Position numbers and translations under genes: made by a program. The notes under the pieces were generated by a model. It had not been told where the DNA came from. It was given only the letters and a program-made list of their open reading frames with translations, and did no database searches. Of a stretch of DNA of 64,000 nucleotides, positions 33,793 to 46,584 are shown in pieces. Position 1 is the first letter of the stretch, and each line of letters opens with the position of its first letter. Origin of the DNA: Streptomyces eurythermus (GTDB taxonomy: Bacteria; Actinomycetota; Actinomycetes; Streptomycetales; Streptomycetaceae); assembly GCF_014649115.1 (NCBI RefSeq), contig NZ_BMSK01000021.1, positions 62,001 through 126,000 of the forward strand. Reading direction: 5' to 3'.

Positions 33793-34126
33793 GCGTACGT
33801 CATCTCCACGGTCGTCTCCGCCGGCGCACCACCGGTCAAAACGCAACGATACGCCCGGGGTGTGACGTGCTTGGCAAAATTGTTCGAGCGACGTAACCCA
33901 GGATGATTCCGAACGGTGCAAACCGGGCACACCGGCGTGATGTGGGTAGGGGAAAAGCGCGATACGGTGCCAGGAGTTGCGACGACACGGCCGGGATCGT
34001 CACCGTTTCGACGGTCCCGACGGCCGGGTACTTGCGCGATCCGTCCCGCCCGTGTGGACTACGGCCAATGCTTCGCGCACGCGCGTGGCTGAGATACTCA
34101 ACAAAGACATGATCAGGAGGCAACCC
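33793..34126. other. Divergent intergenic region between aceE and DUF3052 gene
   Basis: No gene. It holds an ACCGT-TTCG-ACGGT hairpin (34002-34015), a weak TTGCCA (minus, 33877-33872) that could serve aceE, and GATACT (34093-34098), a possible -10 for the DUF3052 gene. Short open frames on both strands have no ribosome sites. Confidence 0.5.
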
Positions 34127-34564
34127 GTGAGCGCGACCGCGGACCACGCGGAGGAGCGGACGAACCCTGCCGCCAGGCTGGGGTTCCAGCCCGGGCAGGT
34201 GGTCCAGGAGATCGGCTACGACGACGACGTCGATCAGGAGCTCCGCGAGGCCATCGAGGAGGTCACCGGGACTGACCTCGTGGACGAGGACTACGACGAC
34301 GTGGCCGACGCCGTTGTGCTGTGGTTCCGTGACGACGACGGCGACCTGACGGATGCGCTGGTGGATGCCACCACGTACATCGAGGAAGGCGGCGCCATCC
34401 TGCTCTTCACGCCGAAGACCGGCCGTGACGGGTATGTGGAACCGAGCGACATCCAGGACGCCGCCACGACGGCCGGCCTGACGGCGTCGAAGAGCGTCAG
34501 CGTCGGCAAGGACTGGAGCGGCTCGCGCCTGGCGACGCCCAAGGCCGCCAAGTCCAAGCGGTGA
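34127..34564 (+). CDS. DUF3052 protein
   Basis: 145-aa small acidic soluble protein of the actinobacterial DUF3052 family: LGFQPGQVVQEIGYDDDVDQELREAIEEVTG, VDEDYDDVADAVVLWFRDDDGDLTDALVDA, and a basic end (TPKAAKSKR). Function unknown. The GTG start is chosen for AGGAGG 6 bases upstream; an ATG at 34109 lacks a ribosome site. It lies divergent from aceE, a common arrangement in Streptomyces. Confidence 0.88.
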   Translation: MSATADHAEERTNPAARLGFQPGQVVQEIGYDDDVDQELREAIEEVTGTDLVDEDYDDVADAVVLWFRDDDGDLTDALVDATTYIEEGGAILLFTPKTGRDGYVEPSDIQDAATTAGLTASKSVSVGKDWSGSRLATPKAAKSKR

Positions 34565-34720
34565 CCGTCTGAGCCGACCGCCGGCCGGGCCGGGCCTTCA
34601 TCGGGGCCCGGCCCGGCCGCCGTGAACCCCTCGGTGACCGCTGCGTAGGGTGGACCCGAGCGCCGGTGCGCGCTCACGCGTCACTTCCACCCGAACAGTC
34701 CCCCGAAGGGATGCACGACG

Positions 34721-35179
34721 ATGGCGATCCAGGTCGGCGACAAGGCACCCGACTTCGAGCTCAAGGACAACCACGGCCGGAGCGTGAAGCTCTCGGACTT
34801 CCGCGGCGAGAAGAACGTGGTCCTGCTCTTCTACCCCTTCGCCTTCACCGGCGTGTGCACCGGCGAGCTGTGCGAGCTGCGTGACAACCTGCCGAAGTTC
34901 ACGGACCGCGACACCCAGCTGCTCGCCGTCTCCAACGACTCCGTCCCCACCCTGCGCGTCTTCGCCGAGCAGGAGGGCCTGGAGTACCCGCTGCTGAGCG
35001 ACTTCTGGCCGCACGGCAACGTCTCGCGCGCCTACGGCGTCTTCGACGAGGACAAGGGCTGCGCCGTCCGGGGCACCTTCATCATCGACAAGGAGGGCGT
35101 CGTGCGGTGGACCGTGGTCAACGGCCTGCCGGACGCCCGTGACCTCGGCGACTACGTGAAGGCGCTCGACGCTCTGTGA
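34721..35179 (+). CDS. Peroxiredoxin, AhpE-like
   Basis: 152 aa. Thioredoxin fold with the peroxidatic motif PFAFTGVC (Cys46) and Thr43 three residues before it, followed by TGELCELRD with a second cysteine at 51. The active-site arginine is probably in the C-terminal half ([12 protein letters not shown]). It reduces peroxides or peroxynitrite in the cytosol. GGATGC precedes the ATG with only a weak ribosome site. It is upstream of the TerD pair in the same direction (137 bp gap), which hints at a shared stress theme but not at one operon. Confidence 0.92.
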
Positions 35180-35315
35180 GCCACGCGGGCCGACACCTGG
35201 GTTTCCTCGGCCCGAGCTGCGCGGCGGGCGGGAACCCGTCACTAGGATCGGCACGTTGATCCCATATCCGAAGCACGACGGGGCTCCCCGCCCCTGAACA
35301 CCACATGGAGGACCC

Positions 35316-35891
35316 GTGGGAGTCAGCCTCAGCAAGGGCGGCAACGTATCGCTGACGAAGGAGGCCCCGGGCCTGACCGCGGTCATCGTCGGTCTGGGGT
35401 GGGACGTGCGGACCACGACCGGTACCGACTTCGACCTCGACGCGAGCGCGCTGCTGCTGAACAACGCCGGCAAGGTCATCAGCGACCAGCACTTCGTCTT
35501 CTTCAACAACCTCAAGAGCCCCGACGGCTCGGTGGAGCACACCGGTGACAACCTCACCGGTGAGGGCGAGGGCGACGACGAGCAGATCAAGGTGAACCTG
35601 GCCGGTGTCCCGGCCGACGTCGACAAGATCGTGTTCCCGGTGTCGATCTACGACGCCGAGAACCGCCAGCAGTCCTTCGGCCAGGTCCGCAACGCCTTCA
35701 TCCGCGTCGTCAACCAGGCCGGCGGCGCGGAGATCGCCCGCTACGACCTGAGCGAGGACGCCTCCACCGAGACCGCCATGGTCTTCGGCGAGCTGTACCG
35801 CCACGGCACGGAGTGGAAGTTCCGCGCCATCGGCCAGGGCTACGCCTCCGGGCTGCGCGGCATCGCGCAGGACTTCGGCGTCAACGTCTGA
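35316..35891 (+). CDS. TerD-family stress protein (copy 1)
   Basis: 191 aa, canonical Ter[53 protein letters not shown] (calcium-binding acidic loop), [12 protein letters not shown], and the ending [23 protein letters not shown]. TerD domains bind Ca2+ and act in tellurite, phage and other stress responses, probably at the membrane with TerC-type proteins. The GTG start has ATGGAGGA upstream. It is followed by a close paralogue (copy 2) 103 bp downstream and a membrane partner. Confidence 0.95.
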
Positions 35892-35994
35892 TCCCGGCAG
35901 CGTAACGACACCCGCAGTGTCCGGCGCCGCACCGTTTACGGGCGGCGCCGGACGCGCAGGAGAACCAGGGAAGCACCAGCAGGGGAGGATCAGC

Positions 35995-36573
35995 ATGGGC
36001 GTCACGCTCGCCAAGGGAGGCAATGTCTCCCTCTCCAAGGCGGCACCGAACCTCACCAACGTCATGATCGGGCTCGGCTGGGACGCGCGCTCCACCACCG
36101 GTGCCCCCTTCGACCTGGACGCCAGCGCGCTGCTGTGCGGCGCCGGCAACCGGGTGCTGGGCGACGACTGGTTCGTGTTCTACAACCAGCTCAAGAGTCC
36201 CGACGGCTCGGTGGAGCACACCGGCGACAACCTCACCGGTGAGGGCGACGGCGACGACGAGTCGATCCTGGTGGACCTCGCCAAGGTCCCGCTCCACTGC
36301 GAGAAGATCATCTTCCCGGTCTCCATCCACATGGCGGACGAGCGCGGCCAGACCTTCGGCCAGGTCTCCAACGCCTTCATCCGCGTGGTCAACCAGGCCG
36401 ACGGCCAGGAACTGGCCCGCTACGACCTCAGCGAGGACGCCTCCACCGAAACCGCGATGATCTTCGGCGAGCTGTACCGGCACCAGGGCGAGTGGAAGTT
36501 CCGGGCGGTCGGTCAGGGGTACGCGTCGGGCCTGCGGGGCATCGCTCTAGACTTCGGAGTCAACGTTTCGTAA
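35995..36573 (+). CDS. TerD-family stress protein (copy 2)
   Basis: 192 aa. Very similar to copy 1 along its full length, with the same FDLDASALL and [15 protein letters not shown] calcium-binding loops and the same C-terminal block. The pair arose by tandem duplication. Differences such as two added cysteines (LLCGAG, LHCEKI) and MADERGQ suggest some specialisation. AGGGGAGGAT precedes the ATG, a strong ribosome site. Likely co-expressed with the DUF475 membrane protein 75 bp downstream. Confidence 0.95.
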
Positions 36574-36648
36574 AGCCGCGTACGGCGCGGGGGAGAACTC
36601 TCCCCGGAATTCGTCCGGGAGGGGCCTCAACAGATGATGGGGTAGCCA

Positions 36649-37788
36649 GTGCTTCTCAAAACCTTCGGATGGTCCTTCGCGATCACCGTGCTCGGTCTGA
36701 TCGCGGCGGCGTTCTACGGGGGGTGGACCGGCTTCGGGGTCGTGGCGATCCTGGCCATCCTGGAGATCTCGTTGTCCTTCGACAACGCCGTGGTCAACGC
36801 CGGAATCCTGAAGAAGATGAGCCCCTTCTGGCAGAAGATCTTCCTCACCGTCGGTGTGCTCATCGCCGTGTTCGGCATGCGGCTGGTCTTCCCCGTCGTC
36901 ATCGTCGCCATCAGCGCCAAGATGGGCCCGATCGAGGCCGTCGACCTCGCGATCAACAACAAGGAACGCTACGAGCAGCTGGTGACCGACGCCCACCCGG
37001 CGATCGCCGCGTTCGGTGGCATGTTCCTGCTGATGATCTTCCTCGACTTCATCTTCGAGGACCGGGACATCCAGTGGCTGCGCTGGCTCGAGCGGCCCCT
37101 GGCCAAGCTCGGCAAGGTCGACATGCTGTCGGTCTGCATCGCCCTGGTCGTCCTGCTGATCACGTCCTTCACCGTCGCCACCCACGCCCACCAGCACGGC
37201 GGTATCCACGCCGACAAGGCCCAGACGGTGCTGATCTCCGGCATCGCCGGCCTGATCACCTACATGATCGTCGGCGGTCTCTCCGGCTACTTCGAGGACA
37301 AGCTGGAGGAAGAGGAGGAGCGCGAGCACGAGCAGGAGGAAGAGGCGGCCCGCAGCGGCAGGAAGAAGCCCGCGATCGTCCTGGCCGGCCAGGCCGCGTT
37401 CTTCATGTTCCTCTACCTGGAGGTCCTGGACGCGTCCTTCTCCTTCGACGGCGTGATCGGCGCCTTCGCCGTCACCAACGACATCGTCCTGATGGCCCTG
37501 GGCCTCGGCATCGGCGCCATGTACGTCCGTTCACTGACCGTCTACCTGGTCCGCCAGGGCACCCTCGACGACTACGTGTACCTGGAGCACGGCGCCCACT
37601 ACGCCATCGGCGCCCTCGCCGTGGTCCTGCTGATCACCATCCAGTACGAGATCCACGAGGTCATCACCGGCTCCATCGGCGTGATCCTGATCCTCGCGTC
37701 CTTCCTCTCCTCGGTCCGCCGCAACCGCGCCCTGGCCGCCGCGGGCGAGGGCAGCGACGCGAAGGCAGAGGTCTCCTCCGGGGTGTGA
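36649..37788 (+). CDS. DUF475 (TerC-like) integral membrane protein
   Basis: 379 aa, about nine membrane segments. The two halves each carry an acidic/Asn motif in a helix: ILEISLSFDNAVVNAGIL (about 37-54) and YLEVLDASFSFDGVIGAFAV (about 258-277), the inverted-repeat pattern seen in the TerC/LysE-like superfamily of metal and ion transporters. A cytosolic Glu-rich loop (EEEEEREHEQEEEAARSG) lies between them. It probably moves a metal ion and works with the TerD proteins upstream; the ion is not known. GTG start with a weak ribosome site. Confidence 0.9.
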   Translation: MLLKTFGWSFAITVLGLIAAAFYGGWTGFGVVAILAILEISLSFDNAVVNAGILKKMSPFWQKIFLTVGVLIAVFGMRLVFPVVIVAISAKMGPIEAVDLAINNKERYEQLVTDAHPAIAAFGGMFLLMIFLDFIFEDRDIQWLRWLERPLAKLGKVDMLSVCIALVVLLITSFTVATHAHQHGGIHADKAQTVLISGIAGLITYMIVGGLSGYFEDKLEEEEEREHEQEEEAARSGRKKPAIVLAGQAAFFMFLYLEVLDASFSFDGVIGAFAVTNDIVLMALGLGIGAMYVRSLTVYLVRQGTLDDYVYLEHGAHYAIGALAVVLLITIQYEIHEVITGSIGVILILASFLSSVRRNRALAAAGEGSDAKAEVSSGV

Positions 37789-37876
37789 CACCCCCGCCGG
37801 TGAGGAACGCTTCGAACGGGGCGGCCGACGCGGTCGGCCGCCCCGTCGGTGTCACAACAGGTACCTGGGGGCGGGA

Positions 37877-38608
37877 ATGGGTTTCTTCGACGGACTGCTC
37901 GGCGGGCGCGCCGCGGCCTTCGACTCGGGCAACGCGGCCACCAACGCCATCGAGCTGACCAGGCGGCACCCGACGGTGTCCCTGACCAAGCAGGGCGCGG
38001 CCACCGGCAATCTGCGCGTCAACCTCACCTGGCGGATGCGGACCTCCGACTTCGGCTCCGGCCCCCGCACCAGCCTGCTGCGCCACCCCTTCAAGGCGCT
38101 GAAGCCGCCGGAGATCCTCGGCCACGGCCAGAGCATGGTCAACGTCGACCTCGACCTGGGCTGCCTGTACGAACTCGCCGACGGCACCAAGGGCGTCGTC
38201 CAGCCCCTCGGCGGCTACCTCGGCGACGTCAACGCACCGCCGTACATCAAGCTCAGCGGCGACGACCGGTTCGGCTCCGGTTCCGGCGAGACGATGTACG
38301 TCAACCTCGACCACCGCGAGGACATAAAGCGGCTGCTGGTCTTCGTCTACATCTACGACCAGACGCCCGCCTTCGACCGTACCCAGGCCGTCGTCACCCT
38401 CTACCCGAGCAACGGCCCCCGCATCGAGATCGGCCTGGACGAACGCCACCCCCAGGCCCGCTCCTGCGCCGTCGTCCTCCTGGAGAACGTCAAGGACGAG
38501 ATGATCGTCCGCCGCGAGGTGAAGTTCGTCTACGGCTTCCAGGGCGAACTGGACCGCCTCTACGGCTGGGGCCTCCAGTGGGGCAGGGGCTACAAGACGA
38601 AGGCGTAG
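37877..38608 (+). CDS. TerA/TerD-family tellurium resistance protein (copy 3)
   Basis: 243 aa. It starts MGFFDGLLGGRAAAFDSGNAATNAIELTRRHPTVSLTKQG, then a divergent TerD-like domain: VNLTWRM, VNVDLDLGCLYEL, YIKLSGDDRFGSGSGE and YVNLDHREDIKRLLVFVYIYD. The aspartate-rich calcium loop is kept in changed form. It resembles TerA-like proteins found with TerD. Soluble. It ends 21 bases before the 3' end of the convergent fourth paralogue. Confidence 0.88.
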   Translation: MGFFDGLLGGRAAAFDSGNAATNAIELTRRHPTVSLTKQGAATGNLRVNLTWRMRTSDFGSGPRTSLLRHPFKALKPPEILGHGQSMVNVDLDLGCLYELADGTKGVVQPLGGYLGDVNAPPYIKLSGDDRFGSGSGETMYVNLDHREDIKRLLVFVYIYDQTPAFDRTQAVVTLYPSNGPRIEIGLDERHPQARSCAVVLLENVKDEMIVRREVKFVYGFQGELDRLYGWGLQWGRGYKTKA

Positions 38609-38629
38609 GGGTGAACGGGTCGCGTCCGC

Positions 38630-39331
38630 TCACCGCCCGATGAACTGAGGCCCCTGAGGCGGCATCCGGAAGTACCCGTCCCCCGCCGAAGCCGCCGGCA
38701 CCGGCACCGGTACCGGCTGGGGATACCCGTACGCCGGCACCTCCGGAGGCAACGGCAGGGCGGACGTCGGCGGCTCCTCCGCCGCCTCGGACTCGTCCAC
38801 CGAGATACCGAAGTCCGTCGCGAGCCCCTTCAGCCCGTTGGAGTAGCCCTCGCCCAGGGCCCGGAACTTCCAGCCCTCCCCGCGCCGGTACAGCTCACCG
38901 CAGATCAGCGCCGTCTCGGACCCGGTCTCCGGCTTGATGTCGAACCGGGCCAGCGGCTCGGCGTCGGCGGCCCCCGCGTCGTACAGCAGGATGCACAGCG
39001 CCGGCACCTGGTCGAAGGTGACCCCGTCGGCGGAGGCGACCAGCAGTATCCGGGAGACGCCCGGCTCGACCCCGGTCAGGTCTGTCTGGATCGTGTCGGT
39101 CAGCCCCTCGGCGACCCGCTTCTTGCCCAGCCGCCACACCTTCCCGGAGGGGTGCCGGGGCTGGTTGTAGAAGACGAAGTCCTCGTCGGAGCGCACACGG
39201 CCGTCGGGCCCGAGCAGCAGCGCCGACACATCCACGTCCGGGACGCCCTGCCCAGGTGTCCAGCGCAGCACGGCGCGTACCGTGCCGGCCTCCAGCGGGA
39301 CGTTCGACCCCTTCAGCATCGCGTGCGTCAT
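38630..39331 (-). CDS. Divergent TerD-family protein with Pro-rich tail (copy 4)
   Basis: 233 aa. TerD fold at about 5-175: [84 protein letters not shown]. The acidic GEGDGDDE loop of copies 1 and 2 is replaced by [16 protein letters not shown], so one calcium site is probably lost. A Pro/Ala/Val-rich tail (about 180-233) may bind another protein. It is divergent from the CitE-like gene across 175 bp, so both may share control. CAGGAT lies 6 bases upstream of the ATG, which allows a leaderless start. Confidence 0.9.
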
Positions 39332-39506
39332 GCGGTCATCCTGCCCTCTCGGTCCTGGTCACGACAATGTGGGGGGCGTGGCGCCGGCATGGGGGAGTTA
39401 CCGGAAATTCATGTCCACGGGGAACCTCCGCCATGGGTCCCTACGTACTATTACCGGCCACCCTTTACCGAACCCAGAGGTGTGGCCGGAGTCCAAAGGG
39501 AGTCCT

Positions 39507-40673
39507 ATGCGTCATTTCGGGCACATTGCCCCCGAGGTGCGGAAGCGCCTCTTCCACCAGGAGCCGTGCGCGTTCACCGCCGACTCCCCGGCCAGGCTGC
39601 TCTCCGCGGCCCTGGGTGCCACGCTCTACAGCCCGGCGACCCGGCCCCGGCTCGCGGACGACATCGTCAAGCAGGCGGGCAGGGGCGTGGTCTCGATGGT
39701 GCTGTGCCTGGAGGACTCGATCGACGACGCGGACGTGGCGGCGGGCGAGGAGAACCTCGTCCGGCAGTTCGCCGACCTCGCCGCCCGGCCCGGGGCGGAG
39801 CCGCCGCTGCTGTTCATCCGGGTGCGCACCCCCGAGCAGATACCGGACCTGGTCCGCCGTCTCGGCCCGGCCGGGCGCCTGCTGTCCGGGTTCGTGCTGC
39901 CCAAGTTCACCGAGGAACGCGGCATCCCCTTCCTGGAGGCCCTGACGGCGGCCGAGCACGCCGGCGGCCGGCGGCTGTTCGCCATGCCGGTCCTGGAGTC
40001 GCCCGAGCTGCTGTACCGCGAGTCGCGCGTGGAGACCCTGGAGGGCATCTCCCGCGCGGTCGACAAGTACCGCGACCGGGTGCTGGCCCTGCGCCTCGGC
40101 GTCACCGACTTCTGCTCCTCGTACGGCCTGCGCCGGGCCCCCGACATGACCGCCTACGACGTCCAGATAGTCGCCTCCGTGATCGCCGACGTCGTGAACA
40201 TGCTCGGCCGGGCCGACGGCACCGGTTTCACCGTCACCGGCCCGGTCTGGGAGTACTTCCGCGCCTCCGAGCGCATGTTCAAGCCGCAGCTGCGGCAGAG
40301 CCCCTTCCTCCAGGTGCAGGCCGCCGAGCTGCGCGAGCGGCTGATCGCCCACGCCATGGACGGGCTGCTCCGGGAGATCTCCCTGGACCAGGCCAACGGT
40401 CTGCTCGGCAAGACCTGCATCCACCCCTCCCACGTCCTGCCCGTGCACGCGCTCTCCGTGGTCAGTCACGAGGAGTTCAGTGACGCCCAGGACATCCTGC
40501 GGCCCGAACGCGGCGGCGGGGGTGTACTGCGGTCGGCCTACACGAACAAGATGAACGAGGTGAAGCCGCACCGCGCCTGGGCCGAGCGGACCCTGCTGCG
40601 CGCCGAGGCGTTCGGTGTCGCCCACGAGGACGTCGGCTTCGTGGAACTGCTCGCCGCCGGCATACCCGGCTGA
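39507..40673 (+). CDS. CitE-like aldolase/lyase of Ter-associated biosynthetic module
   Basis: 388 aa, HpcH/HpaI-CitE TIM-barrel family. Landmarks: GATLYSPATRPRLADD, MVLCLEDSIDDADV (substrate/metal-binding acidic residues), FIRVRTPEQI (Arg), GFVLPKFT, FAMPVLESPELLYRE (Glu metal ligand) and LRLGVTDFCSSYGLRR. It should catalyse a carbon-carbon bond reaction on an acyl or keto acid. AAAGGGAG precedes the ATG. First gene of a plus-strand operon with the phosphoribosyltransferase fusion (27 bases on) and HAD phosphatase. CitE-like enzymes are a known component of predicted Ter-linked nucleoside-like pathways. Confidence 0.85.
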   Translation: MRHFGHIAPEVRKRLFHQEPCAFTADSPARLLSAALGATLYSPATRPRLADDIVKQAGRGVVSMVLCLEDSIDDADVAAGEENLVRQFADLAARPGAEPPLLFIRVRTPEQIPDLVRRLGPAGRLLSGFVLPKFTEERGIPFLEALTAAEHAGGRRLFAMPVLESPELLYRESRVETLEGISRAVDKYRDRVLALRLGVTDFCSSYGLRRAPDMTAYDVQIVASVIADVVNMLGRADGTGFTVTGPVWEYFRASERMFKPQLRQSPFLQVQAAELRERLIAHAMDGLLREISLDQANGLLGKTCIHPSHVLPVHALSVVSHEEFSDAQDILRPERGGGGVLRSAYTNKMNEVKPHRAWAERTLLRAEAFGVAHEDVGFVELLAAGIPG

Positions 40674-40700
40674 ACCTTTCGCCACCTCAGCAAGGAACGC

Positions 40701-43154
40701 ATGAAGAACGCAGTGAACGACGGGGTCTGGTCCGGCAGCTGGGTCGCCGAGCGACTCGGGGTCGGGCTCGTGGGCGACGACGGGCTGCCGGCCCTGCTGG
40801 GGCTCGCGCTGCGCCGCAACCCCAAGCGGGCCCACCTGCTCGTCTCCCACGTCCTCGGCAAGCACGTCCCGCAGTCGCCGTCCGTGATCTACGAGCATGG
40901 GCTGGACCTGGGCCGCCGGGTCGCCGCGCTGCTCGGCGCCGAGGCGTCGGACGCGGTCGTCCTCGGGTACGCCGAGACCGCGACCGGGCTCGGGCACTCC
41001 GTGGCGGACGGGCTCGGTGCCGTGCCGTATCTGCACTCCACGCGGCGGCCGGTGCGCGGGGTCGCCCCGGCGGGCGGGTTCGAGGAGTCGCACTCCCACG
41101 CCACGTCGCATCTGCTGCTGCCCGAGGATCCGCGGCTGCTGGCCGGGCGGGGGCCGCTGGTGCTGGTGGACGACGAGTTCTCCACCGGCAACACCGTGCT
41201 GAACACCATCCGTGACCTGCACGCGCGGTATCCGCGCCGTCGGTATGTCGTGGTCGCGCTGGTGGACATGCGGTCGGCCGAGGACACGGCCCGGCTGGAA
41301 CGATTCGCCGGGGACATCGGGGCGCGGGTGGATGTGGTGGCCCTCGCCTCCGGGGTCGTGGAGCTGCCGGAGGGGGTGCTGGAGAAGGGGCAGCGGCTGG
41401 TCGCGGAGTGCGAGGCGGGGGATGAGGTCCCGTCCCGTGCCCCGCACGGGGCGCCTCAGCCGGGCCACGTCGTAAAAGCCGACCTGCACTGGCCCCCCGG
41501 CCTCCCCGACGGCGCCCGCCACGGTTTCACCCCCGCCCACCGCGCCCGCCTCGAAGCCGCGCTCCCCGCCATGGCCGGCCGGATACGCGAGGCCCTGCCC
41601 GCCGGCGCGCGCCGGGTGCTCGTGCTCGGGTTCGAGGAGCTGATGTACGCCCCGCTGCGGCTCGCGCGGGAGCTGGAGCGCGGTACGGACGCCGAGGTGC
41701 GGTTCTCCACCACCACCCGCTCGCCCGTGCTCGCGGTGGACGACCCGGGCTACGCGATCCGTACCCGCCTGGTCTTCCCCGCCCACGACGACCCGGCGGA
41801 CGGACCCGGCGAGCGCTACGCCTACAACGTGGCCGGCGCCGGTTTCGACGCCGTCGTGGCCGTGGTCGACTCCGTCGCCGACACCCCCGCCCTGCACGCG
41901 CCGGACGGCCTGCTGGCCCGGCTCGCCGAGCAGGTCCCGCACGTTCTGCTCGCGGTCGTACCGTCGTACGTCCCGCACGTTCCCGAAAGGCCGGCCATGC
42001 TGCCCGAGCCCCTCCGCGGTCCCGCGTTCTCCTCGTACGCGCCGGAGGAGGTCGGCTGGCTGCTCCAGGACCTGTCCGACGTGCCCCTGGAGGCGCCGAC
42101 CGAGGAGCGGGAGGAGGCCGTCCAGAGCGGTGGCGCGCACTACGCCGAGTCGCTGCCGGTGGAGTACCAGCCCAGCGAGCGCTACCAGGAGCTGTTCCAC
42201 ACGGCCCTCGAGGCGTCGGCGGCCCGGCTGGCGCGGGCGGTGGGGGTGGTCACCGAGACGGTGATCGCCGAGCGCTCGCCCCGCCCGGTGCTGGTCTCCC
42301 TGGCCCGCGCCGGCACCCCGGTGGGCATTCTGATGCGCCGCTGGGCGCGGTTCCGGCACGGGCTGGACCTGCCGCACTACGCCGTGTCGATCGTGCGCGG
42401 CCGGGGCATCGACGCCAACGCGCTGCGCTGGCTCGCCGCCCACCACGACCCCCGGGACGTCGTCTTCGTGGACGGCTGGACCGGCAAGGGCGCCATCACC
42501 CGGGAACTCGCCCAGGCCCTGGAGGAGTTCGCGCAGAAGGAGGGCGTCACCGGGTTCGACCCGGAGATCGCCGTCCTCGCCGACCCCGGTTCCTGCGTGC
42601 GCACGTACGGCACCCGGGACGACTTCCTCATCCCCTCCGCCTGCCTCAACTCCACCGTGTCCGGGCTGGTCTCGCGCACGGTGCTGCGCGCGGACCTGGT
42701 CGGCCCGGACGACTACCACGGCGCGAAGTTCTACCGCGAACTGGCCGGCGCCGACGTCTCCGTGGCCTTCCTCGACGCCGTCTCCGCCCGCTTCGAGGAG
42801 GTCGACGGCACCGTCACCGGCGCGGTCAAGGAACTCCTCGCCACCGACCGCACCCCGACCTGGGCGGGCTGGCGGGCGGTCGAGCGGATCTGCGAGGAGT
42901 ACGGCATCCACGACGTGAACCTCGTCAAGCCTGGCGTCGGCGAGACCACCCGGGTCCTGCTGCGCCGGGTGCCGTGGAAGATCCTGGCCCGCGCGGGCGC
43001 CGGCCCCGAACTGGACCACGTCCGCCTGCTGGCCCAGCAGCGGGGCGTGCCGGTGGAGGAGGTCGGCGAGCTGCCGTACAGCTGCGTCGGGCTGATCCAC
43101 CCCAAATACACACGCGGTGCCACGGGCGCCGACGGAAAGGCGGTGCACGTCTGA
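40701..43154 (+). CDS. Fused dual phosphoribosyltransferase with TRSP and Pelota-like domains
   Basis: 817 aa, apparently four parts. First PRTase (about 25-240) has a PRPP-binding loop LVLVDDEFSTGNT ending at 165. The TRSP region (about 265-430) has the name motif T339-R-S-P342. A second PRTase-like (StiP) domain (about 470-700) has VVFVDGWTGKGA at 587-598. The C-terminal region (about 740-805, VPWKILARAGAGPELDHVRLLAQQRGVPV) resembles the Pelota/L7Ae RNA-binding domain. It probably makes a nucleoside-like compound from PRPP. Such parts are often encoded by two genes in ter operons. AAGGA precedes the ATG, and the stop overlaps the HAD start by one base. Chemistry is unproven. Confidence 0.82.
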   Translation: MKNAVNDGVWSGSWVAERLGVGLVGDDGLPALLGLALRRNPKRAHLLVSHVLGKHVPQSPSVIYEHGLDLGRRVAALLGAEASDAVVLGYAETATGLGHSVADGLGAVPYLHSTRRPVRGVAPAGGFEESHSHATSHLLLPEDPRLLAGRGPLVLVDDEFSTGNTVLNTIRDLHARYPRRRYVVVALVDMRSAEDTARLERFAGDIGARVDVVALASGVVELPEGVLEKGQRLVAECEAGDEVPSRAPHGAPQPGHVVKADLHWPPGLPDGARHGFTPAHRARLEAALPAMAGRIREALPAGARRVLVLGFEELMYAPLRLARELERGTDAEVRFSTTTRSPVLAVDDPGYAIRTRLVFPAHDDPADGPGERYAYNVAGAGFDAVVAVVDSVADTPALHAPDGLLARLAEQVPHVLLAVVPSYVPHVPERPAMLPEPLRGPAFSSYAPEEVGWLLQDLSDVPLEAPTEEREEAVQSGGAHYAESLPVEYQPSERYQELFHTALEASAARLARAVGVVTETVIAERSPRPVLVSLARAGTPVGILMRRWARFRHGLDLPHYAVSIVRGRGIDANALRWLAAHHDPRDVVFVDGWTGKGAITRELAQALEEFAQKEGVTGFDPEIAVLADPGSCVRTYGTRDDFLIPSACLNSTVSGLVSRTVLRADLVGPDDYHGAKFYRELAGADVSVAFLDAVSARFEEVDGTVTGAVKELLATDRTPTWAGWRAVERICEEYGIHDVNLVKPGVGETTRVLLRRVPWKILARAGAGPELDHVRLLAQQRGVPVEEVGELPYSCVGLIHPKYTRGATGADGKAVHV

Positions 43155-43966
43155 TGCCGGTGCTGGTGGCGAGCGACCTCGACCGGACGCTGATCTACTC
43201 CTCGGCGGCCCTCGCGCTGACCATGCCGGACGCCCGGGCGCCCCGGCTGCTGTGCGTGGAGGTGCACGAGGCCAGGCCGCTGTCCTACATGACGGAGACG
43301 GCGGCCGGGCTGCTGACGGACCTCGGCGACGCGGCCGTGTTCGTGCCCACGACGACCCGGACGCGCAAGCAGTACCAGCGCATCAACCTGCCCGGCCCGC
43401 CGCCCCGGTACGCGATCTGCGCCAACGGGGGGCATCTGCTGGTCGACGGGGTCACCGACGCCGGCTGGCACGCGCGCGTGCTGGCGCGGCTCGCCGACGA
43501 GTGCGCGCCGCTGGCGGAGGTCCGCGAGCATCTGCTGCGCACGGCCGACCCGGTGTGGGTGCGCAAGCACCGGGTCGCCGAAGACCTGTTCGCCTACCTG
43601 GTGGTGGAGCGCGAGCTGCTGCCCGAGGACTGGGTGAAGGAGCTGGCGGTGTGGGCGGAGAACCGCGGCTGGACCGTCTCGCTCCAGGGCCGCAAGATCT
43701 ACGCGGTCCCCAAGCCGCTCACCAAGAGCGCGGCCGTCCGCGAGGTCGCCCGCCGCACCGGCGCGGATCTGACCCTGGCCGCGGGCGACTCCCTCCTGGA
43801 CGCCGACCTCCTCCTGGCCGCCGACCGGGGCTGGCGCCCGGGCCACGGAGAACTGGCGGACACAGGCTGGACGGCCCCCCGGATCACCGCACTACCGGAA
43901 CGGGGCGTACTGGCGGGGGAGCGAATCCTGCGGGAGTTCCTGAGAACGGTCCGACAGCCGGCCTGA
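43154..43966 (+). CDS. HAD-superfamily phosphatase of Ter-associated module
   Basis: 270 aa. HAD motif I D8-L-D10-R-T-L, motif II near PTTTRTRKQYQR (Thr), the Lys of motif III near KPLTKSAAV, and motif IV AGDSLLDADLLLAADRG. The C2-type cap with CANGGHLLVDG resembles sucrose-phosphatase/Cof-type enzymes. It probably removes phosphate from the product of the fused phosphoribosyltransferase, with which it is translationally coupled (TGATG). The physiological substrate is unknown. Confidence 0.87.
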   Translation: MPVLVASDLDRTLIYSSAALALTMPDARAPRLLCVEVHEARPLSYMTETAAGLLTDLGDAAVFVPTTTRTRKQYQRINLPGPPPRYAICANGGHLLVDGVTDAGWHARVLARLADECAPLAEVREHLLRTADPVWVRKHRVAEDLFAYLVVERELLPEDWVKELAVWAENRGWTVSLQGRKIYAVPKPLTKSAAVREVARRTGADLTLAAGDSLLDADLLLAADRGWRPGHGELADTGWTAPRITALPERGVLAGERILREFLRTVRQPA

Positions 43967-43974
43967 GGGGGCGA

Positions 43975-44190
43975 CTACCCGCAGCACCCTCCACCACAAC
44001 ACCCGCCACCCCCGGACCGGGGCGCGGGCGCCGGCCCACTGGAGACGCCGCCCACAGCCACCGTGGACAAAAGCTTCACCGTGTCGTCATGCCCCGCGGG
44101 GCACGTCGCGGGGTCGGCGGACTCCGCCATAGGGCGGTTGAGTTCGAACGTGTCGCCGCAGCTCCGGCAGCGGTACTCGTAGCGAGGCAT
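43975..44190 (-). CDS. FmdB-type zinc-ribbon protein
   Basis: 71 aa. MPRYEYRCRSCGDTFELNRPM, then CPAGHDD, gives a CxxC...C-x-x-x-H style zinc ribbon of the FmdB/putative regulatory protein family. The tail ends in Gly/Cys (GGGGCCGGGCCG), an unusual cysteine-rich end that could bind metal. Function unknown. TAACCT lies 6 bases before the ATG with no ribosome site, so it is probably leaderless. Convergent with the HAD gene. Confidence 0.82.
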   Translation of the reverse strand: MPRYEYRCRSCGDTFELNRPMAESADPATCPAGHDDTVKLLSTVAVGGVSSGPAPAPRSGGGGCCGGGCCG

Positions 44191-44196
44191 GGGCCC

Positions 44197-44202
44197 AGGT
44201 TA
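44197..44202 (-). promoter_or_regulatory. -10 box of leaderless FmdB transcript
   Basis: TAACCT on the minus strand, six bases upstream of the ATG at 44190. No ribosome site. Confidence 0.4.
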
Positions 44203-44290
44203 GCCGTCAGGGGGGTGCCGGGGGCAGCTCAATGTTTCATGAGTGTTGCCATCTGTGCGGCATATGTGCGGGGCATTCGAAAACGTTACT

Positions 44291-44296
44291 GATAAT
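44291..44296 (+). promoter_or_regulatory. -10 box upstream of PBP-like gene
   Basis: TGATAAT-type box (GATAAT 44291-44296 with upstream T). Transcription would start near 44303, after the GTG at 44299, which supports translation from GTG 44368 with its GAGGGAG site. No clear -35. Confidence 0.45.
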
Positions 44297-44367
44297 TTGT
44301 GAACGCCGTGGCGAGGATGCTCAGCTCACCCGCGCGAGCGAGACCGAGTGCGGAGGGAGACGCAGGC

Positions 44368-46584
44368 GTGACCGATGCGTCGCAGGGGGAGGACGGCCCC
44401 ATGGGGGGTGGCCGTGGCGACAAGCCGCTGGGGGCCGACGAGACCCTGCATCTGAGAGTCGACGCCCTCAGGGCGGACGAAACGATGCAGCTGCGCGTCC
44501 CCGCGCCCTCGATGGAGTCCTCGCCGTCGAAGGAGTCCGCGCCGACCGGTGGCCGGGCCGACCGCCGACGCGGCGCGCGCTCCGCCGGCCGGAAGCGCTC
44601 GGCGGGCCGTCTGCTCGGCCCGCTCGCCCCGTATACCCGCCGAATAGCGCCCTACGCGCGCCGCCTGAAGCCCGTCTATCCGCGCCCCGGCCGCACCGGC
44701 TGGCGCCGCTGGATGCCCTCCTGGCGCCAGTGGATCGGCGGCCTCCTGGCCTCGTTCGGCCTGCTCGGCGCGTTCCTGGTGACCGCGTACGCGATGACGG
44801 ACATACCGAGCGACATCAACTCGTACGCCACCCAGCAGGACAACGTCTACTTCTGGTCCGACGGCACGCCCATGGCCCGTACGGGCTGGGTGCAGCGGCA
44901 GGCGATGCCGCTGGAGGACATCCCGCAGGACGTGCGCTGGGCGGTGCTCGCGGCGGAGAACGAGAGTTTCTACTCGGACCCGGGCATATCCCTCAAAGGC
45001 ATCAGCCGGGCACTGTTCCGCACGGTGGGCGAGGGGGACACCGAGGGCGGATCCACTATTACCCAGCAGTATGTGAAGAACGTTTACCTGACCCAGAATC
45101 AGACGGTCAGCCGTAAATTCACCGAGGCGATGATCGCCCTCAAGCTCGACAACAAGATGAGCAAGGACGAGATCCTGGAGGGCTATCTCAACACCAGCTG
45201 GTTCGGCCGGGGCACCTACGGCATCCAGCGCGCCGCCCAGGCCTACTACGGCAAGGACGTCGACAAGCTCGACGTCTCCGAGGCGGCGATGCTCGCCTCG
45301 CTGCTCAAGGGCGCCGGTCTGTACGACCCGACGCTCGGCAAGGCCAACCACGCGCGGGCGGTGGAGCGCTGGTCCTGGATCCTGGACCGGATGGTGAAGA
45401 TCGGCAAGCTGTCGAAGCAGGAGCGGGCGAAGTACACGAAGTTCCCCGAGCCGTTGAAGACCAACCCGCTGTACGACACCGGCGAGCAGAGCGACTACCT
45501 GGTGGAGCTGGCGTCGAGTTACGCCAAGAAGGCCGCGCACCTGACGGACAAGCAGTTCGACCTGGGCGGCTACCAGATCTACACCACCTTCGACCGCAAG
45601 CGGGAGAAGGCCCTCACCGACGCCGTCACCAAGGCCCGGGAGGAGGCGCGGGACGAGACCCCCGAGGCGGCGCAGAACGGTCACTACGGCGCCGCCTCGG
45701 TGGCCGCGGACGGCAGGATCCTCGCCGTCTACGGCGGCCCGGACCACCGCAAGCAGGGCTACAACGAGTCCAACGCCACCACCGTCCCGGCCGGCACCGC
45801 GTTCCTGCCCTTCGTTTACGCCGCCGGACTCGAACACGGTGTGCACAAGACGCGCAGCGGCCCCGCCACCCCCGTGGGCCCGGACAGCGTCTACGACGGC
45901 GACGACGGCGTGCCCGTCACCACGCCCGAGGGCCCCTACTGGGACCGCAGCGGCAAGAAGGTCGCCGCGCACAACGACGGCGGGAAGTCGTACGGGAAGA
46001 TCACCCTGCGCGAGGCGCTCGCCAAGTCGGTGAACACCCCGTTCATGCAGCTGGGCATGGACGCGGGACTGGACAAGGTGCGCGACACCGCCGTGGCCTC
46101 CGGGCTGCTGCGCTCCAGCATGGGCCCCCAGGTGCCCGGGCTGTCGCTGGGCACCTCCACGCCCAGCGCGATCCGGATGGCGAACGGCTATGCCACCTTC
46201 GCCGCCGGAGGCAACCACACCGAGCCGTACTCGGTGGGCCGGATCACCCGCAACGGCGCGCCGGTCGCGCTGAGCACCCCGTGCCCGAAGCGGGCGGTCG
46301 GCGCGCGGGTGGCCGAGCAGGTCACCGAGGCGCTCACCGACTCCTTCCGCACCGCCCACCCCGACGCGGCGGCCGGCCGGTCCGGGGTGTCCGGGAAGGC
46401 CGGCGGCACCGAGAAGGACACCGCCGCCTGGTACGTGGGCACGGCCGACTCGGTGTCCACCGCGATCGTCGTCTACCGGATCGACCTGGCCAAGTCCCTG
46501 GAGCCACTGCCGCTCCAGGGCCTGGCCGGGCCCGCCCACAGCGTCCCGTATGCCCTCTGGTCGGCCGCGACGGGCCTCGGCTGA
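44368..46584 (+). CDS. Class A PBP-like transglycosylase with degenerate transpeptidase domain
   Basis: 738 aa from GTG 44368. Cytosolic low-complexity start (about 1-120), one membrane anchor (about 122-142), then a GT51 glycosyltransferase with E197-N-E-S-F, GGSTITQQ (ending 234), RKFTEAMIALKL and KDEILEGYLN, which polymerises lipid II. The C-terminal transpeptidase fold (about 400-730) keeps KSVNTPF (SxN, 554-556). It has TAFLPF (477-482) where the catalytic S-x-x-K-P-F should be, and GKAGGT where KTG should be. Both the nucleophile Ser and its Lys are therefore missing, and it is probably transglycosylase-only. Thr477 as a substitute nucleophile without the Lys seems unlikely. Confidence 0.88.
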   Translation: MTDASQGEDGPMGGGRGDKPLGADETLHLRVDALRADETMQLRVPAPSMESSPSKESAPTGGRADRRRGARSAGRKRSAGRLLGPLAPYTRRIAPYARRLKPVYPRPGRTGWRRWMPSWRQWIGGLLASFGLLGAFLVTAYAMTDIPSDINSYATQQDNVYFWSDGTPMARTGWVQRQAMPLEDIPQDVRWAVLAAENESFYSDPGISLKGISRALFRTVGEGDTEGGSTITQQYVKNVYLTQNQTVSRKFTEAMIALKLDNKMSKDEILEGYLNTSWFGRGTYGIQRAAQAYYGKDVDKLDVSEAAMLASLLKGAGLYDPTLGKANHARAVERWSWILDRMVKIGKLSKQERAKYTKFPEPLKTNPLYDTGEQSDYLVELASSYAKKAAHLTDKQFDLGGYQIYTTFDRKREKALTDAVTKAREEARDETPEAAQNGHYGAASVAADGRILAVYGGPDHRKQGYNESNATTVPAGTAFLPFVYAAGLEHGVHKTRSGPATPVGPDSVYDGDDGVPVTTPEGPYWDRSGKKVAAHNDGGKSYGKITLREALAKSVNTPFMQLGMDAGLDKVRDTAVASGLLRSSMGPQVPGLSLGTSTPSAIRMANGYATFAAGGNHTEPYSVGRITRNGAPVALSTPCPKRAVGARVAEQVTEALTDSFRTAHPDAAAGRSGVSGKAGGTEKDTAAWYVGTADSVSTAIVVYRIDLAKSLEPLPLQGLAGPAHSVPYALWSAATGLG

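Follow-up and report, generated by a model that had tools for sequence, protein, structure and literature searches.

What do the enzymes encoded beside Ter genes make? A Ter-associated biosynthetic gene set was reportedly predicted by Anantharaman, Iyer and Aravind in 2012 (Mol Biosyst), and, within the literature searched, no metabolite of Ter systems is known to us. The question arises in a 64,000-nt stretch of Streptomyces eurythermus DNA (termed the window; all coordinates of its features are positions within it), where genes for a CitE-like lyase, an 817-aa double phosphoribosyltransferase (PRTase) and a HAD phosphatase lie beside genes for TerD-family proteins and a DUF475 membrane protein (Table 1). 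An earlier note on this DNA had described the core of this group at 38630-43966 and had assigned it to the 2012 set. Its coordinates and gene identities hold by Pfam and structure matches, and the families of that set (CitE-like lyase, PRTase_2-TRSP, StiP-PELOTA and HAD) are indeed present together with TerD- and TerC-type neighbours. The window operon differs from the module as cited in later papers in having no linked ATP-grasp gene, a fused PRTase and StiP, and CitE in first position, and in being chromosomal and near-universal in its genus.

We think it fairly probable that this chromosomal, Ter-linked operon makes a ribosylated small molecule, by ribosylation that depends on phosphoribosyl pyrophosphate (PRPP) and subsequent dephosphorylation by the HAD enzyme. 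Specifically, the acceptor would be a carbon skeleton made or trimmed by the CitE-like lyase. The two-headed PRTase protein would move ribose-5-phosphate from PRPP onto this acceptor, and the HAD enzyme would strip the 5-phosphate to free the product. The TerD and TerA proteins and the DUF475 membrane protein would probably sense the product or mediate its action, and the PELOTA domain of the PRTase protein may bind RNA, perhaps for autoregulation.

The available excerpts of a jumbo-phage survey (PMC7824862) and of a Klebsiella terC paper (PMC12054061) repeat the 2012 prediction, and those of the latter trace the association of Ter systems with resistance to tellurite, colicins and phages back over decades. 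According to an excerpt of PMC8779313, a Pseudomonas citronellolis study, terCD (or terCE) is sufficient for tellurite resistance in E. coli, and terA or terZ eases the growth burden. The window enzymes therefore probably have a role other than tellurite resistance itself. In the open-licence literature we found no tests of these proteins as Ter enzymes, no papers joining terW or terY with a phosphoribosyltransferase and none linking 'trehalose phosphatase' with tellurite. New here are the non-obligate status of the ATP-grasp, the near-identity of a plasmid-borne HAD of this operon with 6d3v and the predicted PRTase fold of StiP; together with the Streptomyces form of the operon, they sharpen the question.

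Domains and predicted folds of the 817-aa protein

The 'double phosphoribosyltransferase' of the earlier note is matched by four Pfam families in a row: PRTase_2 (residues 32-218, E 4.9e-69), TRSP (270-405, E 1.1e-39), StiP (444-694, E 2.6e-106) and PELOTA_1 (721-800, E 3.3e-35). An AlphaFold2 model of the whole protein, built with 52 sequences, reached a pLDDT of 80.6 and a pTM of 0.58, and one of the StiP-PELOTA half alone a pLDDT of 84.1 and a pTM of 0.88.

Residues 23-229 of the model, which span PRTase_2, match adenine phosphoribosyltransferase (APRT), PyrR and PRPS (Foldseek E 1e-5; Z up to 13.4), and the PRTase_2 profile resembles PyrR/APRT at E 1.7e-4. The PRPP loop VLVDDEFSTGNT is intact, with D157, D158, T162 and G163 kept 9/9. 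This half is thus predicted to have a type I PRTase fold with a PRPP loop containing two adjacent aspartates (DD). It shares the fold and loop with PyrR, APRT and HPRT, from which it differs by a conserved F-E-HSHA motif and by its TRSP partner. Such kinship with the nucleobase users PyrR and APRT, and the intact DD pair, speak for a finer form of our proposal in which the product is truly nucleoside-like, with PRTase_2 joining ribose and a base-like acceptor through an N- or C-glycosidic bond, in line with the 2012 proposal of Anantharaman et al. We regard this form as plausible, at a little below an even chance, because the HAD lies near sugar-phosphate phosphatases and has a plasmid form named and assayed as a trehalose-6-phosphate (T6P) phosphatase, and because the match of StiP to an O-ribosyltransferase is no worse than that to PyrR.

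This last match concerns the second half of the protein. Its model matches PyrR (Foldseek E 4.5e-4, Z 10.0), and PyrR/HPRT folds in general at Z 9-10, so that a second PRTase fold is predicted for StiP. The first VIA row is chain D of 8a0m, the Haemophilus influenzae type b (Hib) capsule polymerase (Z 10.4, rmsd 4.3, 221 aligned, residues 636-1028), a segment that falls in the CriT region by the published boundaries. According to the available excerpts of PMC10299916, CriT, at about 599-1036 of Bcs3, moves ribose-5-phosphate from PRPP to a hydroxyl, the HAD enzyme CrpP removes the phosphate, and D680 and E818 of CriT replace the DD pair. The PRPP loop of CriT holds a single acid, E818, and the corresponding StiP loop VDGWTGKG likewise has one, D591, kept 10/10.

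These parallels favour another finer form of our proposal, in which the product is an O-linked riboside, for instance a sugar, polyol or acid bearing a ribofuranosyl group, formed by PRPP-dependent O-ribosylation and the HAD in the manner of CriT and CrpP in Bcs3. The plasmid HAD of the operon, which corresponds to an enzyme studied with the disaccharide phosphate T6P (see below), fits this form as well, although T6P turnover may be genuine. The 8a0m and PyrR rows are tied, however (Z less than 1 apart), and the 50 Foldseek rows listed for the StiP half do not include it. Furthermore, CriT carries its second acid in loop 1 (D680), whereas the first loop of StiP, SLARAG, has none, though D571 in the next StiP loop is invariant. 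Bcs3 also differs as a polymerase with a ribitol-phosphate transferase, and no CitE or PELOTA is described in the excerpts. We hold the O-linked form tentatively, as a serious alternative to a nucleoside and slightly less probable than it. The pairing of PRPP-dependent O-ribosylation with dephosphorylation is known also from BtrL and BtrP of the ribostamycin/butirosin pathway.

TRSP resembles PRTase_2 in one HHalign comparison (probability 71%, E 3.6e-5), and a T(T)R motif is common to both, so TRSP may have arisen from PRTase_2 by duplication and decay. The case is made by HHalign, because for the whole model the VIA alignments lay mostly within residues 23-229. Nothing was found by HHalign between TRSP and StiP.

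PyrR is itself an RNA-binding PRTase, and the 817-aa protein ends in a predicted L7Ae-like RNA-binding domain. The C-terminal PELOTA region matches an L7Ae/Snu13 profile (E 0.006) and L30e/L7Ae-type folds (Z about 9), and the K-P----E-TR--LRR-P positions are invariant 10/10. These features would suit a protein that acts on RNA, with PELOTA_1 holding a tRNA, an rRNA or a K-turn while the PRTase halves ribosylate or repair RNA. We consider this improbable. A small molecule is the better fit for a HAD phosphatase and a C-C lyase, PELOTA could have a regulatory role, and a mostly-Streptomyces StiP profile (A7) run against PDB sequences gave only a ribosomal protein at E 0.19, a weaker PELOTA link. 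No Rfam family was matched at 34000-45000, which bears only on RNA encoded there.

StiP has also been named as a cysteine protease, and a role for it as such in stress signalling is very hard to credit. The Pfam/RefSeq name is all that speaks for it; no cysteine is invariant or nearly so in 10 diverse StiP proteins (Cys632 is kept in 8/10) and the predicted fold is PRTase-like. We therefore set the protease aside.

The phosphatase and the lyase

The window HAD has no Pfam match at E<=0.001. The note's call of a HAD phosphatase nevertheless holds, by matches to the solved 'trehalose phosphatase' 6d3v/6cj0 (phmmer E 1.5e-10; profile E 1.1e-55) and by its motifs: D8, D10, T67, K191 and D216 are kept in 8/8 aligned proteins and D212 in 7/8, positions that we take to be catalytic. 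In the CitE-like protein, Arg107, Glu164, Asp201 and the GKT-IHP positions, presumably catalytic too, are kept in 7/7 aligned proteins.

A closer tie to 6d3v is seen on a Pseudomonas aeruginosa plasmid, pTJPa150 (locus L142), which carries ATP-grasp, trypsin-like, PRTase, HAD, StiP and CitE genes followed by TerD, TerB and TerC genes. Its HAD (L142:9989-10747), a homologue of the window HAD with the RefSeq name 'Trehalose-6-phosphatase', is nearly identical to PDB 6d3v (251 residues, E 2e-159). Cross et al. (2018), in the original paper on this trehalose-6-phosphate phosphatase (TPP), are said to have reported specific T6P hydrolysis. In the available excerpts of PMC6838324, the 'extra-chromosomal TPP from P. 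aeruginosa' (Paer-ecTPP) has Cys85 and Cys231, was assayed with T6P, a disaccharide phosphate, and was inhibited with a Ki of 2.1 uM. In the 6d3v chain, two of the cysteines are at 85 and 231 once two extra N-terminal residues are discounted. Thus, the HAD family of the Ter operon very likely has solved structures (6d3v, 6d3w and 6cj0) and a T6P assay under another name; it was published as a trehalose enzyme, with no mention of a Ter operon in the excerpts.

If the HAD were a real TPP, the operon might instead serve T6P metabolism and adjust osmolytes. The T6P assay and the RefSeq name of the plasmid enzyme support this reading, as does the description of TPPs as exquisitely substrate-specific (PMC6838324, excerpt). 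PF02358, the trehalose-phosphatase family, was not listed for the window HAD up to E 10, and four relatives reached at best E 0.0026, under the Pfam cut-off; two of those four reach the sucrose-phosphatase cut-off. In keeping with this, the HAD falls near sugar-phosphate phosphatases (sucrose-phosphate, mannosyl-3-phosphoglycerate). There is also no trehalose-6-phosphate synthase among the annotated genes of L142, and the PRTases and CitE would be left without a role. We judge the trehalose reading very unlikely. Since the HAD is under the trehalose-phosphatase cut-off, the true substrate may be a different compound, for which T6P substitutes.

Spread, partners and the weighing of the proposal

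Of 296 evenly sampled actinobacterial genomes, 16 contain TRSP, namely 12/12 Streptomyces and 4/284 others, those four from one other family. A TerD gene lies within about 10 kb in 16/16 of these genomes, that of S. eurythermus included, and the link to TerD genes drawn in the note is thereby upheld for Actinobacteria. Among 121 Streptomyces genomes, 119 have TRSP and 120 have CitE. The two TRSP-negative assemblies are split into 1140 and 1420 contigs. CitE is present at 98% identity in the 1420-contig assembly, the 1140-contig one has neither gene, and other fragmented Streptomyces assemblies do carry TRSP. The order of the eight genes (nine query pieces, PRT and StiP being one gene) is the same in 11/11 other Streptomyces. 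It recurs in 70/80 loci of named Streptomyces species, the best 80 of at least 573 confirmed candidates. The remaining ten have the same order over the part present, with only end genes missing, and six of them end at a contig end upstream. Given this near-universal presence and constant gene order, the Streptomyces locus is a core chromosomal operon and not a roaming island.

Across bacteria, 36 stretches were tabulated by tblastn, of which one with HAD only (L154) was excluded, leaving 35 PRT+StiP loci, the window uncounted. This sample is biased, since nearly all loci were found by PRT/StiP or HAD queries and were hand-picked, and the constancy of PRT and StiP follows from this selection. 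A HAD gene occurs in 34 (33 by tblastn plus an open reading frame in L146 identified by eye), CitE in 30 and TerD in 28. The order CitE-PRT-StiP-HAD occurs in Actinobacteria and Bacillota (21 loci; Curtobacterium L060 is without CitE and Brevibacillus L148 without HAD). The order ATPgrasp-PRT-HAD-StiP-CitE occurs in Proteobacteria and Deinococcus, with no ATP-grasp in view in Azospirillum L151. The PRT-StiP fusion of the window is found likewise in Curtobacterium L060. From this table, PRTase_2-TRSP, StiP-PELOTA and HAD are likely the minimal unit, and CitE and ATP-grasp look like acceptor-side additions.

The note had also presented the locus as the best candidate for an undescribed pathway. 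This does not stand, for the set was predicted in 2012, and homologues adjoin terZABCD on the E. coli IncHI2 plasmid pMRGN207 (L152) and occur in a jumbo phage (stretch L144). The ter block of pMRGN207 resembles the window in having homologous PRT, HAD, StiP and CitE beside TerD, TerC and TerB genes. It differs in its ATPgrasp-PRT-HAD-StiP-CitE order and its additional TerY-C/vWA, kinase and PP2C genes, and its sequences are divergent. Viral scans with diverse PRTase and StiP halves gave two loci each, and in a viral fold library the top match was a PRTase of phage ME3 (E 6.7e-18); a scan with the 817-aa fusion (query A1) gave no viral relatives.

Several loci have unusual content. PRTase_2, HAD and StiP triads lie on rhizobial plasmids (L153:7895-10828, L059:9896-13152 and L155:8896-12152), and the roughly 8-10 kb fetched on each side contain neither Ter genes nor CitE or ATP-grasp. 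A Brevibacillus plasmid (L148:7761-11317) has CitE-PRT-StiP, and no HAD or TerD gene was found in the fetched stretch. Locus L146 (11456-13624) mixes both architectures, with a ter-type ATP-grasp and a Macro-domain protein beside CitE-PRT-StiP-HAD; the Macro domain would fit an ADP-ribose-like or otherwise ribosylated ligand.

The earlier note had remarked on the absence of an ATP-grasp partner from the window. A search with PF15632 (ATPgrasp_Ter), the one ATP-grasp family searched, found no match on the window contig, so this remark is not contradicted. The absence is not a gap, though: a linked ATP-grasp occurs in 9/35 PRT+StiP loci, so we count it as non-defining, and in 0/21 loci of Actinobacteria and Bacillota (tblastn). 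Moreover, the genome has one strong PF15632 match elsewhere (E 3.2e-32, contig C24:79694-80812), which by eye lies between a likely MFS transporter and another membrane protein. This lone protein aligns over 290-314 residues with nine Ter-cluster ATP-grasps (E 5e-38 to 5e-15); its alignments to the remaining ATP-grasps in the comparison are much weaker (E 1e-5 or worse).

At E<=1e-30, a ter-type ATP-grasp is found in 48/121 Streptomyces (four of these at 39-43% identity) and in 8/12 Streptomyces of the phylum sample; the four non-Streptomyces TRSP genomes gave weak matches. ATP-grasp is therefore not obligate, being dispensable to the four-enzyme set in most hosts. Its loss was rejected as a defect, since 73/121 genomes have no ter-type ATP-grasp at that threshold, yet TRSP is in 119/121. 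A helical-looking protein encoded ahead of CitE in two Mycobacteriales loci (L054:5669-6709 and L061:5558-6757) was considered as a hidden ATP-grasp and rejected; no Pfam family matches the L054 copy, and on inspection by eye both sequences look helical and do not resemble an ATP-grasp.

How well, then, does PRPP-dependent ribosylation followed by dephosphorylation account for these data? The HAD that it calls for is a nearly constant partner (34/35 loci). A number of observations weigh against it. The PRPP loop of StiP has one aspartate and no vicinal acid pair, HHalign links PRTase_2 and StiP weakly (E 0.059, probability 0.9%), and a search of PDB sequences with StiP profile A7 found no PRTase up to E 10, the best match being at E 0.19. 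Because of this missing pair and weak sequence link, it is the predicted folds that carry the assignment of StiP as a PRTase. The open-licence literature searched yielded no report of an activity for PRTase_2 or StiP. CitE is absent from 5/35 loci and a linked ATP-grasp from 26/35, which makes the acceptor route uncertain. In seven of the 35 loci the fetched stretch shows no TerD gene, so that the link to TerD is not absolute. The T6P assay of the near-identical plasmid enzyme and the exquisite specificity ascribed to TPPs, which the ribosylation proposal does not predict, count on the same side.

Within the ribosylation proposal the evidence on the bond type is divided: PRTase_2 favours a base-like acceptor, and StiP and HAD favour an O-linked one. 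The 'nucleoside-like' product of the earlier note is accordingly one option, and an O-linked riboside fits about equally well. Speculatively, one product with two riboses could satisfy both. A stricter version dispenses with nucleoside synthesis altogether: PRTase_2 and StiP would be two ribose-5-phosphate transferases of one soluble system for O-ribosylation from PRPP, in which the riboside is unmasked by the HAD known as 'trehalose-6-phosphate phosphatase'. Nearly all Streptomyces would make the resulting disaccharide-like or bis-ribosyl stress metabolite, and plasmids and a jumbo phage of other bacteria would carry the pathway. We consider this version unlikely.

Locus layout, a candidate control element and meaning

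The start codon of the HAD gene overlaps the stop codon of the PRTase gene, and 27 bases separate the CitE and PRTase genes; the CitE, PRTase and HAD genes are therefore likely a single operon. The CitE start was placed where homology in relatives begins, and a mechanical GTG start at 39282 was set aside. Pfam matches support both canonical TerD calls, the divergent TerD call and the DUF475 call of the earlier note. Its TerA-like label is reasonable and weaker than the other gene calls: the protein reaches TerD at E 0.022 only, and aligns at 35.5% identity to part of a longer Polaromonas TerD-family protein.

Table 1. Features of the Ter-linked locus in the 64,000-nt S. eurythermus window.
Feature	Position	Strand	Evidence
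TerD-family gene 1, canonical	35316..35891	+	Pfam TerD E 4.5e-89
TerD-family gene 2, canonical	35992..36573	+	Pfam TerD E 3.1e-84
DUF475 membrane protein, TerC-related	36649..37788	+	Pfam DUF475 E 7.4e-138, TerC E 3.2e-20
TerA-like protein	37877..38608	+	TerD at E 0.022; partial alignment to Polaromonas TerD-family protein
Divergent TerD gene, transcribed away from operon	38630..39331	-	Pfam TerD E 1.3e-44
Candidate control element GGGAAC-N16-TACGTACTATTACCGGCCAC, divergent intergenic region	39420..39461	+	Alignment of 78 intergenic regions
CitE-like C-C bond lyase/aldolase	39507..40673	+	C-C_Bond_Lyase PF15617 E 1.5e-120
817-aa PRTase_2-TRSP-StiP-PELOTA_1 fusion	40701..43154	+	Pfam, AlphaFold2 models, fold searches
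HAD-IIB-like phosphatase	43154..43966	+	Relative of 6d3v; HAD positions intact

In the genome as a whole, TerD domains give 11 matches over seven contigs, three of them within the window and some of the others in open frames of 400-930 aa. PADLOC defence models gave no matches at E<=0.001 for seven of the eight proteins (the second TerD was left out), and a defence-system label was dropped.

The intergenic region between the divergent TerD gene and CitE was aligned in the window and in 77 of the 80 Streptomyces loci, three being dropped by end and length filters. In the 20-base block TACGTACTATTACCGGCCAC, 16 bases are identical in 78/78 regions and the rest in 75-77/78. An upstream GGGAAC, 16 nt before the block, is nearly invariant. 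The combined pattern GGGAAC-N16-TACGTACTATTACCGGCCAC matches the genome just once when up to 3 mismatches are allowed, and a reversed control gave none. The element may combine a promoter for an alternative sigma factor with an operator; we take it to resemble an ECF-type promoter, and we know of no regulator for it. No sigma-70-type promoter was found at 35000-44400.

If the link between the Ter operon HAD and the 6d3v-type phosphatases is true, crystal structures and an assay are already available for one enzyme of the pathway, and the question of its substrate is directly approachable. The core operon of Streptomyces would then be a natural place to seek the compound.

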